Source of the DNA: an uncultured Rubrobacteraceae bacterium
GTDB lineage: Bacteria; Actinomycetota; Rubrobacteria; Rubrobacterales; Rubrobacteraceae
DNA length: 38,279 nt
NCBI GenBank assembly: GCA_902806095.1
Contig: CADCVF010000027.1
Span: 1 to 38,279, forward strand
Direction: 5' to 3'
Below the pieces are notes generated by a model. It did no database searches and was not told where the DNA came from. It was given only the letters and a program-made list of their open reading frames with translations. Both the position numbers and the translations under genes were made by a program. Positions 11,142 to 27,444 of the stretch are shown piece by piece. The first letter of the stretch is position 1, and every line of letters begins with the position of its first letter.

Positions 11142-11941
11142 AGCCTCGCGGGGGCAGGATCGACGTTCTTGGTGTGGGTGTGGACCCAATAACCGTGGCG
11201 GAGCTGCACGCGGAGATCGCACGCCTGGCGCAGGGAGGAACGCTCGGTCTCGTATTGAACGTGAACGCCCACTGTCTGAACCTCTGCTATAGAGATTCTG
11301 CACTGCGGGCCTCTCTGAACGGCGCTGACGTCGTCTTCTGCGATGGGGCTGGGGTCATGCTGGCGGCGAGGATGCTCGGTGGGCGCATCCCAGCACGTAT
11401 CACCTACGCAGCCTGGATCTGGCGGCTGGCCGATTTCGCTGCGGCCGAGGGCTTCTCTCTCTACTTCCTCGGCGCCAGGCCCGGTGTGGCGCAGGAGGCT
11501 GCCAGGAAGTTGAGAGAACGTTGTCCCGGCTTGAGGATCGTCGGTGTCAGTCACGGCTACTTCGACCACTCGGCCGGGAGCGCCGAGAACGAGGCGGTCC
11601 TCGAGGAGATCAACGCCGCCGCCCCTGACATCCTGCTGGTCGGCCTCGGGATGCCGCTCCAGGAGACCTGGCTGACGGAGAACAGAGACCGGCTCGACGC
11701 CGGCGTCGCCCTTACCTGCGGTGCCGCCTTCGACTACGCCTCCAAGAGGGTGCGTCGCGGCCCGCGCCTCCTGACCGAGAGCGGTTTCGAGTGGCTGGCG
11801 CGGCTCCTCCACGAGCCCCATCGCCTGTGGCGACGCTACCTCCTCGGCAACCCCCTCTTCCTGTGGCGAGTCCTGAGACAGCTCCTCTTCAGGCTGGCCG
11901 GGAGAGGAGCTGTCAAGGACCCGCCCCAGGATCGTCGTTAG
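11126..11941 (+). CDS. WecG/TagA/CpsF-family glycosyltransferase
   Basis: GTG 11126 is chosen as the start because GGAGGAG lies at 11114-11120 with 5-base spacing, and it places the gene 16 bases into the end of the preceding one. The product is 271 aa. Family landmarks are IDVLGVGVDPIT, LVLNVNAHCLNL, ADVVFCDGAGVMLAARMLGG, LYFLGARPGVAQEAARKL and PDILLVGLGMPLQETWL. This GT26 family transfers ManNAc(A)- or glucose-type residues to a lipid-linked acceptor as an early step in building wall or capsule glycans. It is the last plus-strand gene of the tight operon and converges on the next sulfotransferase, with a 29-base overlap of the 3' ends. Confidence 0.9.
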   Translation: MAPPVEPRGGRIDVLGVGVDPITVAELHAEIARLAQGGTLGLVLNVNAHCLNLCYRDSALRASLNGADVVFCDGAGVMLAARMLGGRIPARITYAAWIWRLADFAAAEGFSLYFLGARPGVAQEAARKLRERCPGLRIVGVSHGYFDHSAGSAENEAVLEEINAAAPDILLVGLGMPLQETWLTENRDRLDAGVALTCGAAFDYASKRVRRGPRLLTESGFEWLARLLHEPHRLWRRYLLGNPLFLWRVLRQLLFRLAGRGAVKDPPQDRR

Positions 11942-12701
11942 CGCGATCCGGAGCCGGCTCGCGTGTCAGACGGTCGTACACGGCCTCGGCCCTGGAGATC
12001 AAGCCCCTACGTTTCGGATCCTCCAGTTCGTATCCCACTTCGCGCTTTTTCTTCTCTCTGGTGGCGAACGGACGTGAGGCTTTGTTCTCCCATGACGCTT
12101 CCCCGAACCTTTTCCTGGAGTTTCTCTCGATGCGGGCGAACACGCCGTCGACGTTCCTTTGGTCGTGACGAAACACAGAGTAGGTCGTCCCGAACCTGTC
12201 GTTTATGCGTCGGATGACCTCTCCGAAGTCCCCTGTTACCTCTTCGAAGAGTCCGAGGACGTAGGAATCACGGTACCCTTCGACGGTCTCGTAGAAAGAT
12301 AGATAGTACCTGAGAGCCTGGTCGACGGAGATCGGGTCTCGTATGGCGAACGACAGCACGGCGTCCTTGGGCTTTCGTATCAGAACCAGGGTGGGTACCC
12401 GCCACCGTGCGGCCCTGATCACTTGCGCGGGAACGTGAAGTCCGTGGGCGATACGCACCCTCTCGCTTTGCGCCCTGTTGAAGGCCACCCTGGCAAACGA
12501 GTTGGCCGACCTCGGGAACCCCTCCATGACCAGTTGCGTCTTTGGGGTCACGACGCGCGCCTGGTCCTTGCGCGCCAGCCGGTACAAACCGTAGAAAGCT
12601 GCCGGGTGCTTGCCCGCGTAGGTCTGGAGCCACTTCTCGAACCCGAACACGGCGGGGTGTTCATCCACTTGGGACTCAAACCGCTCCTCGATGTCTCTCA
12701 C
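11913..12701 (-). CDS. Sulfotransferase-like protein (second of three), minus strand
   Basis: The PAPS-loop-like motif is EGFPRSANSFARVAF and the second motif is LVLIRKPKDAVLSFAIRDP. Both are typical of the sulfotransferase family, here with Asn in place of the usual Thr at the end of the loop. GTG 12701 is chosen because GGAAGG at 12709-12714 is well spaced, giving 262 aa. The frame is open to ATG 12752, but that codon has no ribosome site and abuts repeat copy 2. It is the only minus-strand gene within the polysaccharide locus, with its own promoter region facing the WbaP gene. The C-terminus is rich in Arg and Lys. Confidence 0.8.
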   Translation of the reverse strand: MRDIEERFESQVDEHPAVFGFEKWLQTYAGKHPAAFYGLYRLARKDQARVVTPKTQLVMEGFPRSANSFARVAFNRAQSERVRIAHGLHVPAQVIRAARWRVPTLVLIRKPKDAVLSFAIRDPISVDQALRYYLSFYETVEGYRDSYVLGLFEEVTGDFGEVIRRINDRFGTTYSVFRHDQRNVDGVFARIERNSRKRFGEASWENKASRPFATREKKKREVGYELEDPKRRGLISRAEAVYDRLTREPAPDRANDDPGAGP

Positions 12702-12752
12702 TCCTCCGCCTTCCACCTTGCCGGCTCTTGTCAGACCCTCAATCTTACACAT

Positions 12753-12831
12753 TTAGCATTTCAGCCAGTCAGCAAACTAAATGCTGACTGGCTGAGAGCC
12801 GCCGCAGGCGGCGTGCTGAATTGCTGACCAG
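12753..12831. repeat. Modular intergenic repeat, copy 2, with 14-bp perfect inverted repeat
   Basis: TCAGCCAGTCAGCA (12761-12774) and TGCTGACTGGCTGA (12782-12795) are exact inverse copies 7 bases apart. They are followed by the hairpin GCCGCC-GCA-GGCGGC and the constant block GTGCTGAATTGCTGACCAGC. It fills the divergent spacer between a sulfotransferase gene and the WbaP-like gene. Confidence 0.85.
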
Positions 12832-12832
12832 C

Positions 12833-12869
12833 GCGGGTTTAGGAAGGGGTGGCCCCTTCCTAAACCCGC
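12833..12869. repeat. 37-nt perfect hairpin with TGG loop, type A
   Basis: GCGGGTTTAGGAAGGGG (12833-12849) pairs perfectly over 17 bp with 12853-12869 around the loop TGG. No T-run follows. The right arm reaches the expected -35 position of the promoter at 12883. A second hairpin of the same design is at 22114-22150. Confidence 0.9.
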
Positions 12870-12882
12870 TGTCTTGTGGCGG

Positions 12883-12906: not shown

Positions 12907-14292
12907 GTGCGGACCTTGAGAGACATCCCTAAGAGGCTCCTTGGCTTCAAGCTGCTGCGGCGCTTTACGAGCGTCCTCATTCTGGTGCTCGCAGACGCTC
13001 TCGCGCTCGGGTTGGGAGGGGCCGCCTGGGTCGCCGGCAGCAGGTCGGATCCGATCATCGGACTCGCGCCGTTGTTGCTCGCGGCCTGGATCACGCTCTT
13101 CGCCGCTTTCCGCCTCTACGACAGGGCACCCGTACGCCGCAGCCCCGGGGGGCTCGTGGGAGCCGCATTTTGCTGGGCCGGGTTGGTGACGATCGGGGCG
13201 ACGATCTACCCAGAGAGCGGTCTCGGGCTCGGGGAGATAGTGTCGGCCGCCGTACTCGGCTTACTGTGCTCCGGCGCGCTCAGGCTCCTCTACGAGCGCG
13301 CCATAGGTAGGATCTACCGCCGCGGCTTCGGACAGACTCCGGTTCTGCTGCTTGGGGATGACGAAGGCCGGGCGCGGTTGCGCCGGATGATGGAGCGTGC
13401 GCCCGGCGCCTACGTACTGGCGGGTGAGGTGGACCTCGGAAGCGGGGGGGCCGACGGGTACCTCGCGTCGGTAAGGGAGGTGTTGGACCGCACACAAGCA
13501 CGTGGTGTCGTCCTCGTAGGGGCTGAGGGTTTGCCCGCTGAGGAGCTCCTCGAGCTCGTCCACTCGGTGCGGTTGCGTGGGGTGCCGTTGAGGGTGGTGC
13601 CTGGCGCTTTCGCCTTGATGCGGGGCCGTACCATACTATCGGAAGGCATGGGGTTGCCACTCCTCGAGGTCCACTACCCGGGGCTGGACAATACTCAACG
13701 GACCCTAAAGCGTGTCCTCGATGTGACGGCCTCCGTAGGTGGGCTCGTGCTCCTCTCGCCCTTCTTTCTGGCCGTGGCAATTGCGGTCAGGCTCGATTCG
13801 CCAGGGCCCGTGCTCTTCCGTCAGAAGCGCGTCGGGGCAGATGAGAAAGTCTTCGTCTGCTACATGTTTCGCTCCATGCATAGGGACGCCGAAGTACGCC
13901 AGGCTGCCCTCGAGGATCTCAACGAGGTCGAGGGTCCGGCCTTCAAGATCAGGGACGATCCTCGCGTGACCAGGGTCGGGCGCTTCCTGCGGCGTTGGAG
14001 CATAGACGAATCGCCCCAGCTCGTGAACGTCCTCAAAGGGGAGATGAGCCTGGTCGGCCCAAGACCCCTGCCGGTACGTGACTTCCTGGGGATGGATGAT
14101 TCCCATAAGAGGAGGCTAGGGGCGGTCCCCGGGATGACCGGCTACTGGCAGACCAGCGGCCGCTCCGACCTCTCCTTCGAGGAGATGGTGCGTCTGGACC
14201 TCTACTACATAGAGAACTGGTCGCTCTCATTCGACCTCAAGATCATCCTGAAGACCCTCGGTGCCGTTCTACGCCGCGAAGGCGCATACTGA
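12907..14292 (+). CDS. WbaP-like polyprenyl-phosphate hexose-1-phosphate transferase
   Basis: GTG 12907 follows GGAGG with 5-base spacing; 461 aa. Four or so N-terminal membrane helices and a CoA-binding-like domain (TPVLLLGDDEGRARLRRMM) precede the catalytic PNPT domain: a re-entrant helix (LDVTASVGGLVLLSPFFLAV), then DSPGPVLFRQKRVG, then MFRSMHRDAE, then RFLRRWSIDESPQLVNVLKG, then MSLVGPRPLP and PGMTGYWQTSGRS. The enzyme moves a hexose-1-phosphate, often glucose or galactose, onto undecaprenyl phosphate to begin repeat-unit synthesis, at the cytoplasmic face. It supplies the lipid-linked substrate for the two glycosyltransferases, the flippase and the polymerase of this locus. Confidence 0.93.
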   Translation: MRTLRDIPKRLLGFKLLRRFTSVLILVLADALALGLGGAAWVAGSRSDPIIGLAPLLLAAWITLFAAFRLYDRAPVRRSPGGLVGAAFCWAGLVTIGATIYPESGLGLGEIVSAAVLGLLCSGALRLLYERAIGRIYRRGFGQTPVLLLGDDEGRARLRRMMERAPGAYVLAGEVDLGSGGADGYLASVREVLDRTQARGVVLVGAEGLPAEELLELVHSVRLRGVPLRVVPGAFALMRGRTILSEGMGLPLLEVHYPGLDNTQRTLKRVLDVTASVGGLVLLSPFFLAVAIAVRLDSPGPVLFRQKRVGADEKVFVCYMFRSMHRDAEVRQAALEDLNEVEGPAFKIRDDPRVTRVGRFLRRWSIDESPQLVNVLKGEMSLVGPRPLPVRDFLGMDDSHKRRLGAVPGMTGYWQTSGRSDLSFEEMVRLDLYYIENWSLSFDLKIILKTLGAVLRREGAY

Positions 14293-21984: not shown

Positions 21985-22295
21985 TCCCCAGGGATAGGAA
22001 GTTACTTTTCGGGAAGACCGCAGAGAAGACGTATAGAGTGCTTAGAACGCGAGCAGTGCGAGCTCTGGTGGCGGCTTCGCCGCCGGAGTCCCGCCCCGGT
22101 CTCGGCCCTCACAGCGGATAGCTGAAGGGTTGGACCCTTCAGCTATCCGCGCAAGTCAGAACGTGAGCACATCATCTAGCCAGCGTTTCTTACGCCAACT
22201 GATCGGACACGAGAACACCTAGAGATAGTGTAAGCTGAGGCGGATCAGGTCACGGTCCAGCGGGACACCGGAGGTGCCTATGTTATCTTCGACTC
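21985..22295. other. Intergenic stretch, 311 bases, no gene
   Basis: This lies between the M23 gene and the 3' end of the minus-strand phosphatase, so both transcripts run into it. It holds a small hairpin GGCGGC-TTC-GCCGCC at 22070-22084 and the 37-nt perfect hairpin at 22114-22150. No T-run follows either hairpin, and no ORF of note was seen. Confidence 0.8.
22114..22150. repeat. 37-nt perfect hairpin with TGG loop, type B
   Basis: GCGGATAGCTGAAGGGT (22114-22130) pairs perfectly with 22134-22150 around the loop TGG. Length, loop and the GCGG/CCGC ends are the same as in the hairpin at 12833-12869, but most inner bases differ in a paired way. The GCTGA element also occurs in the modular repeats. 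Confidence 0.9.
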
Positions 22296-24030
22296 TTATC
22301 TAATGGCTTCACCACGAGCCGCTCTCTCCTGGGCCCGTATCCGCTCCGTGTCCGTCTCGACGAGCGACGCCGAGCGCGAGGGGACCTGTGTCTCACCCGC
22401 TTGCTTCAGACCGGGATTGCCGGCTTCGGTTACGAAAGACGCTCGCGTGTAGATCTGCGCGCCGGGCTGCTTGACGTAGGGGAGCACCCGATAGTCTGCT
22501 CTCCATTCCTGAGGAGTGAGCGTGCAGCGGACGTAGCCGCGCTGACCGTTGAAGAATTCGATGTGCGGGTTCTCGTCAACCACGGCCTCGTTGCCTGGGG
22601 TCGTGTCCGCCCCGTCGCCGCCCGAGGTGATGGAGCTACCAACGAACTCGACGCCGAGGGTTTTCGAGCCCTGATCGTAGAAGTCCGCCTTGAGGTTGTT
22701 TGCCCAGTTGTTGTGCACATCTCCGGTCAGGACGACCGGGTTGGCGATGTTCCGCTCCCCGATGTAGCCTAGGATCCTGTTCCTGGAACCGAGATAGCCG
22801 TCTCAGGCGTCCATGCTGTAGCGTTCGGCGTCTGATGTGTCGAAGTCCCGCTGGGCCATAAAGACCTGCTGGGCGAGAACATTCCATGTCCTGCTCGATG
22901 AGGAGAGACCATCGAGGAGCCACTTCTCCTGCGCGGCTCCCGTCAGCGTGCGGGCCGGGTCTTGCTGCTCGGGGTTGGGCGGGTCGGTCCCGTCGCCAGC
23001 GGCCTGATCGTCCCTGTACTGTCGCGTATCCAGGACGTTGAACTCGGCGAGGTTGCCGTACGCGACGCGCCTGTACAGCAGCATGTCCGGGCCCTGCGGC
23101 ACCGAGGAACGTCTCAGGGGCATGCGCTCGTAGTACGCTTGGTAGGCCGCCGCCCGGCGGCGCAGGAACGCCTCCGTCGTGGGTGTCTGGCTTCCCGCCT
23201 CGGGAATCTCATCGGCATAGTTGTTCTCGACCTCGTGGTCGTCCCAGGTGACGGCCCATGCGGAGGCCGCATGCGCCGCCTGCAGATCCTCGTCGGTTCG
23301 GTACTGGGCGTGACGATTTCGGTAGTCCGAGAGGGTGATGATCTCCGGTCCGCTGTGAGCCCTTACGTTGCCACCTGGGGCGACGTACTGGTTGGGGCCG
23401 TACTCGTTAGATGTAGTCTCCGAGATGAAGGACGAGGTCCAGGTCCTCGTCGCTCATGTGACGGTAGGCCGTGAAGTATCCATGCTCGTACTGCTGGCAA
23501 GAAGCGAAGGCGAAGTTCATCTCGGCGAGGGCGGCTCCCAAGGCCGGAGCGGTCTTCGTCCTGCCGACCGGGCTGAGGTCCGAACCCGCACGGAATCGGT
23601 AGAAGTATTCTCTTGCCGGCGACAATCCCCCTACTTCGACGTGGACCGAGTGGGCCAGCTCAGGGCGCGCGAACGTATCGCCTTCCCTGACTATACTCCG
23701 GAACCTCTCGTCGGTGGCGACCTGCCACTGTAGCGTCACCCTTCTATCCGGCATCCCGCCGCCGTTCAGCGGGTCCGGGGCAAGGCGTGTCCAGAGTACG
23801 ACGCCGCCAGGCAATGGGTCCCCAGAGGCGACACCGAGTTTGAACGGATAGTCAGGGAACCGCGCCTGGGCCATAGCCCTCTCCGTGAAGGGGCCAGCTC
23901 CGAATACAAGCGCCGCCGCGCTCGCTCCGGTCAGCTTCACGAAGGTTCGACGGTCGATCTCTCCCATTCGAGAGACGGGTTCGACACGCCGTTTTCTCCA
24001 GTTACCCTCTATGCTCACGAGTTCCTCCAT
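22296..24030 (-). pseudogene. PhoD-type alkaline phosphatase with one frameshift and one nonsense codon
   Basis: A Tat signal ([20 protein letters not shown]) is followed by the PhoD N-terminal domain ([20 protein letters not shown]) and the metallophosphatase core: [20 protein letters not shown] and LVLHLGDYI. At 23407-23409 the frame hits TAA because one extra A follows ATCTA. In the shifted frame the protein continues as YEYGPNQYVAPGG, SAWAVTWDDHEVENNYA and LDTRQYRDDQ. At 22803-22805 an in-frame TGA stands where Trp is expected (YSMDA-stop-DGYLGSR). The same frame then runs through PVVLTGDVHNNW to the natural stop at 22296. All metal-ligand blocks survive in pieces. Over 1.7 kb there are only these two lesions, so inactivation is recent or they are sequence errors. 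Confidence 0.85.
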
Positions 24031-27359: not shown

Positions 27360-27444
27360 GGGGGCATGGCAGAGCGGACGAATGCGCTGGTCTTGAAAAC
27401 CAGAGGCGGTAGAACGCCCGAAGGTTCGAATCCTTCTGCCCCCG
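27360..27444 (+). tRNA. tRNA-Ser (anticodon UGA)
   Basis: The acceptor arms GGGGGCA and TGCCCCC pair over 7 bp with discriminator G. The anticodon stem CTGGT/ACCAG encloses CTTGAAA, giving anticodon TGA. A long variable arm (AGGCGGTAGAACGCCC) marks a type II tRNA, and GAAGG-TTCGAAT-CCTTC is the T arm. CCA is not encoded. It reads UCA and UCG/UCU serine codons by wobble. Confidence 0.97.

Follow-up and report, generated by a model that had tools for sequence, protein, structure and literature searches.

The window—the whole stretch of 38,279 nucleotides analysed here, part of a Rubrobacteraceae-like draft genome of 3.83 Mb in 85 contigs (G000)—contains just two inverted repeats with perfect arms of 17 bp when loops of 3–20 nt are allowed. 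One, cap hairpin 1 (12833–12869), consists of the arms GCGGGTTTAGGAAGGGG and CCCCTTCCTAAACCCGC on either side of a TGG loop; the other, cap hairpin 2 (22114–22150), of GCGGATAGCTGAAGGGT and ACCCTTCAGCTATCCGC around the same three bases. Neither is assigned to a strand. A sequence-only reading of this DNA had given arms, loops and positions exactly so, and had raised the question of whether such arms are equally frequent in shuffled sequence; twenty dinucleotide shuffles of the window yielded none of 15 bp or more. The folding energies are –33.0 kcal/mol for hairpin 1 and –31.9 kcal/mol for hairpin 2, with z-scores of –6.6 to –10.7 on either strand. The only Rfam covariance-model match in the window at the gathering score is a tRNA (27360–27444), and no known family covers the hairpins.

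Hairpin 1 adjoins an intact array of modular repeats (12761–12832). This is made up of a module with a 14-bp inverted repeat, TCAGCCAGTCAGCA…TGCTGACTGGCTGA (12761–12795), related copies of which occur elsewhere in the genome; a short G+C hairpin, GCCGCC-GCA-GGCGGC (12798–12812), which recurs in other arrays; and, on the plus strand, a junction unit, GCTGAATTGCTGACCAGC (12815–12832), which connects array to cap and is identical at most sites. On its outer side, read on the minus strand, the cap is preceded by AAGACA (12870–12875), where the motif of the family as a whole is TNAYA. A TATACT box follows 13 nt after the end of the hairpin, and beyond it, at 12907, comes a sugar transferase gene (PF02397). 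Between 12880 and 12912 the sequence CGGTATACTCC…GGAGGACYCCRTG in front of this gene resembles a –10 box and ribosome site. The gap is divergent, as the sequence-only reading stated, but the ORF on its other side (minus strand, 11913–12716, 267 aa), which adjoins the hairpin, has no Pfam match. This sequence, CGGTATACTCC and GGAGGACYCCRTG alike, is conserved in two relatives, G002 and G007, where the segment CGGTATACTCC lies 3′ of the end of another gene and has no hairpin; the element has thus arrived at a place immediately ahead of a probable –10 box.

An M23 peptidase gene, ending 129 nt away, and a fragment of PhoD, ending 145 nt away, flank hairpin 2. The fragment, a minus-strand ORF of 140 aa (22296–22718), matches just the last 80 positions of PhoD (PF09423), and so may be the remnant of a gene. 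The outer flank of the hairpin reads TCACA (22109–22113, plus strand); its other side adjoins a decayed array remnant, GCAAGTCAG (22151–22159, minus strand), through a junction like that at intact sites, C57:35935 for example. Upstream, at 22070–22084, stands GGCGGC-TTC-GCCGCC, a short G+C hairpin of the type found in the arrays, and hence the decayed element to which cap 2 belongs may extend to both sides of it. Both hairpins had been described as lying beside GCTGA blocks and as having GAAGGG or a second sequence next to the loop. The first description is right for hairpin 1, whereas at hairpin 2 it applies just to the remnant; GAAGGG touches the loop at 12833, but at 22114 one T intervenes.

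The two hairpins belong to a sizeable family. A search of the genome with hairpin 1 and its flank returned 45 matches, which divide into array units and hairpin units, and a covariance model built from 13 hairpin copies identifies about 60 places (118 matches, most palindromes being matched on both strands), with E-values down to 8e-13. This number is a lower bound, the covariance search having scored 150 of 1982 first-look candidates, and these members, at least ~60 of them, answer the possibility, foreseen by the sequence-only reading, that the genome might hold no others. Shuffles and copy number together rule out a chance origin. Apparently only one copy, itself a weak match, falls inside a called gene, so these are short extragenic palindromes in many copies, as REP-type elements are. 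The suggestion that they form a second structured family tied to the modular repeats is borne out: nearly all of the ~60 places are joined to GCTGA/TCAGC arrays. A TGG loop and exactly 17 bp are not, however, general features of the family; other members have stems of about 12–17 bp and many different loops.

What is common to the family is a consensus of GCGG, five variable paired bases, GGAAGGG, a short loop and the mirror arm. In a set of 54 distinct copies, the four outermost pairs are nearly fixed, as are pairs 10–15, and the variation resides at stem positions 5–9, where 262 of 270 pairs are Watson–Crick, with up to four pair types at each position, far above shuffles, and without a single G–T wobble. 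The compensation seen between the inner bases of the two window hairpins thus extends throughout the 54 copies, and complementary stem change, another trait of REP-type sequences, is displayed at positions 5–9. The family is patchy: its model matches 10 of 39 genomes of the Rubrobacteraceae, in 5 of 13 genera.

Architecturally, the hairpin is an end cap. With few exceptions it is joined, by the same end of its own, to one end of a GCTGA/TCAGC array (GCTGANNTGCTGACCAGC followed by GCGG, for example); its outer flank is TNAYA and its inner flank GCTGGTCAGC or GCATTTCAGC. GCTGA blocks in inverted orientation and short G+C hairpins make up the arrays, and entire stop-to-stop gaps fold as branched structures of up to –141 kcal/mol in 245 nt. 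A second family of caps, TGCAAAGAGG-loop-CCTCTTTGCA, occupies the same place at 12 sites in G000 and about 30 in the relative G006, and caps with still other sequences exist. Some TGCAAAGAGG-loop-CCTCTTTGCA caps close the other end of an array, also beside stop codons (L078 3201–3230, L049 2827–2860, L064 3115–3145 and L181 1805–1837). Elsewhere, arrays without a long cap hairpin fill the entire gap between two convergent stop codons (L157 15066–15146 and L161 3348–3531). In combining with arrays, short G+C hairpins and other caps, the family forms mosaics with other motifs, as REP/BIME elements do.

The position of the caps relative to genes is far from random. With genes called on the draft genome by our own codon-usage script, and distance measured from the outer edge of the hairpin, oriented by its array, to the stop codon of the gene ending there, 28 of 61 sites in G000 lie within 15 nt of a stop codon, versus 3.6% of intergenic positions per side. 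Most of these stop-linked hairpins lie 0–3 nt from the stop codon, or contain it. The same proximity is found in relatives, at 14/24 sites in G008 and 10/11 in G006. At three G006 loci (L138, L140 and L144) the stop codon is part of the palindrome or of its edge, for example TAGAGCGG…CCGCTCTA; in that genome the stop codon at the cap position can be TAG, TAA or TGA. About half of the G000 copies, on the other hand, are not at a stop codon, and the loose motif TNAYA precedes the hairpin whether or not one is present, so a target preference could explain part of the association. Arrays favor convergent gaps. In a 400-kb sample of G000 picked regardless of hairpins, 9 of 21 arrays lie in such gaps, which number 49 of 387, and in G006 14 of 18 do, such gaps numbering 27 of 174, so that convergent gaps make up 13–16% of all gaps in the two sets; inspection revealed no clear member of the cap family in that sample, and so it furnishes statistics for arrays only.

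The caps themselves lie in convergent gaps at 25 of 59 sites and in divergent gaps at just 4, hairpin 1 among these exceptions. The doubt cast on a terminator role by the divergent setting of hairpin 1 does not, therefore, apply generally. The same counts weigh against reading the hairpins as operators, or as structured DNA to which a protein binds, and hairpin 1 as a regulator of the sugar transferase gene, as do the location of most copies at gene ends and the presence of the same promoter-like segment, without the hairpin, in G002 and G007. Perfect symmetry, with the base and apex of the stem conserved and the middle variable, is what an operator might show, and the TATACT box so close to hairpin 1 is conserved in both relatives, but as an account of the family we find this very improbable.

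Could the caps be ordinary intrinsic terminators of single genes, alike by chance or convergence? Stable hairpins after stop codons, enriched in convergent gaps, are what one would expect of terminators. We give this reading very little credence, however, because GCGG, GGAAGGG and the array junction are fixed, because the hairpin is missing from the orthologous gene ends of relatives and is swapped as a unit, and because there is no T-run. This last point had been made for the two window hairpins at the outset, and it stands: neither they nor the family flanks have a true T-run, the one hit of a lax scan, at 12833 on the tail TGTCTTGTGG, comparing with 0.4 expected by chance. Canonical intrinsic terminators are rejected on this account. 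T-tract terminators are rare throughout G000, array neighborhoods included, and their scarcity leaves room for another 3′-end device.

The most informative comparisons are with G008, a sister species (its contigs are named Rubrobacteraceae MAG MGR_bin48) whose flanking sequences are 81–96% identical to those of G000. At 11 of 15 comparable sites G008 retains a family hairpin in the same place; the orthologue of hairpin 1 differs by a compensated change of A–T to T–A. Over the first 13 pairs at the 11 sites, 27 pair changes are two-sided, the bases still being paired, and 6 are one-sided. For 10 of the 11, the G008 hairpin is matched more closely by 5 to 34 of the 60 remaining G000 copies than by its own orthologue, although one of these ten, C72:30433, reflects not a swap but a deletion in G000. 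After a stop codon that the two genomes share, at C69:40801, come hairpins with largely unrelated arms. Since most orthologous hairpins are no closer than unrelated copies, despite such similar flanks, it follows that they have been replaced as units; hairpins are exchanged between the sister species entire. This, together with the lack of wobble pairs, suggests that a process at the DNA level may underlie the variation, and compensated changes alone are no proof of selection on RNA.

In two other relatives the hairpin is absent: none was present at nine orthologous gene ends examined in G002 and G007. The native stop codon survives ahead of the hairpin at C59:69316 and C69:40801, while at C25:37829, C11:65215 and C39:64786 the gene end has been rewritten, such that the stop codon is now inside the hairpin. 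Target duplications, sought through empty sites at C80:41356 and 12833, could not be read at either, the surrounding gene order being different. The plsY-like gene at C80:41356 (L075) contains TTCCGCTATACT in relatives without the hairpin as well (L192, L196, L203 and L206), and the hairpin's outer end therefore falls on sequence that is older.

These observations lend some weight to the idea that the elements are selfish, non-autonomous DNA of the MITE or REP-like kind with no function for the host, the hairpin being an end recognized by a transposase and TNAYA the target or tag. Insertion at gene ends would simply be the least harmful, and would find the motif there, since both TGA and TAA fit TNA. 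The outer motif is independent of gene orientation, sister species differ by presence and absence as well as by swapping, distribution within the family is patchy, and several gene ends have been rewritten by the element. Yet mere avoidance of genes would not predict a spacing as tight as 0–3 nt from the stop codon, and the variety of stop codons at the cap position in G006 includes TAG. Nor is there a dedicated transposase: G000 has only two Y1_Tnp genes, both IS200/IS605 genes paired with TnpB and neither flanked by caps nor near any, and a RAYT-driven REPtron is rejected for the same reason. We regard a purely selfish origin as possible, but doubtful.

The interpretation we favor, and consider reasonably probable, is that these are REP/BIME-like mosaic repeats of the Rubrobacteraceae in which the cap would act as a 3′-end RNA hairpin behind stop codons. 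Each element strings together inverted GCTGA/TCAGC blocks and short G+C hairpins, and has a long cap hairpin at one end or at both. It settles at the ends of genes, where only a few bases separate the cap from the stop codon; in some cases the cap carries that codon. When transcribed, the cap would fold (at about –32 kcal/mol, similarly on both strands) right behind the terminating ribosome. There it would define the 3′ end of the mRNA, blocking 3′ exonucleases and helping polymerase to stop without a U-run, and it might also slow the termination of translation, an effect reported for REPs of E. coli that lie no more than 15 nt from stop codons. Exchange of caps would proceed through the GCTGA blocks, by recombination or conversion, or else through a putative transposase acting in trans. 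Against a 3′-end role in RNA are the copies away from stop codons, and hairpin 1 itself, in its divergent gap before a probable promoter. A bolder proposal, and one we think rather unlikely, is that the cap is a mobile cassette, with or without a stop codon of its own, that a dedicated mechanism delivers to gene ends and that is afterwards exchanged as a unit among them. Such caps would be changeable 3′-end modules whose 5-bp middle, hypervariable yet perfectly paired, tunes translation termination and mRNA decay.

Most descriptions of REP-type palindromes come from Proteobacteria, and debate continues over both the means of their spread and their role after stop codons. Here a comparable family appears in a deep actinobacterial lineage without the usual tag and transposase, and comparison of sister species shows whole palindromes being substituted at individual gene ends whose neighborhood barely changes. 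The origin of compensated changes can thus be tested, unit exchange versus stepwise selection, and covariation in such hairpins should not be taken as proof of RNA function.

Several known systems invite comparison. Non-autonomous derivatives of IS200/IS605 elements have no coding capacity, and end in a hairpin next to a short unpaired motif. The caps likewise are non-coding, element-end hairpins next to a short unpaired motif, but they do not flank either of the two resident IS200/IS605 copies, and no link to TnpA was found. The GTAG- and CGTC-tagged REP super-families are short, mostly extragenic palindromes, present in tens to hundreds of copies and often behind coding regions, with complementary stem changes, mosaics and a patchy distribution among species; the CGTC REPs have no dedicated transposase (Di Nocera et al. 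2013, PMC3733652). In copy number, extragenic location, covariation, mosaics, patchiness and, as regards CGTC REPs, the want of a transposase, the caps resemble these and REP/BIME elements (PMC3733652). They differ in having no neighboring RAYT and in being joined to GCTGA/TCAGC arrays, and neither a GTAG nor a CGTC unpaired tag was found beside the hairpin in the family flanks. That survey of REPs does not mention Actinobacteria or Rubrobacter (PMC3733652), and we found no paper in the open-access literature that links Rubrobacter with such repeats. The caps, then, resemble the REP elements of other bacteria but apparently constitute a separate set, hitherto undescribed.

Two further systems concern the ends of transcripts. 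Terminators without U-runs have been proposed that consist of hairpin clusters, mostly within 20–50 nt of the stop codon and favored at high G+C (PMC8355165); those are individual structures derived by folding, whereas the caps are a repeated family of swapping units with much longer stems. In E. coli, REPs no more than 15 nt from a stop codon are reported to stall ribosomes and down-regulate translation, and 446 of 4,072 (~11%) lie that near by the survey count (PMC12306157). The caps place a stable hairpin within the same distance, at 28/61 sites versus ~11%, and although their sequence and host are unrelated to those of E. coli, they may, by analogy, affect translation in a similar way.
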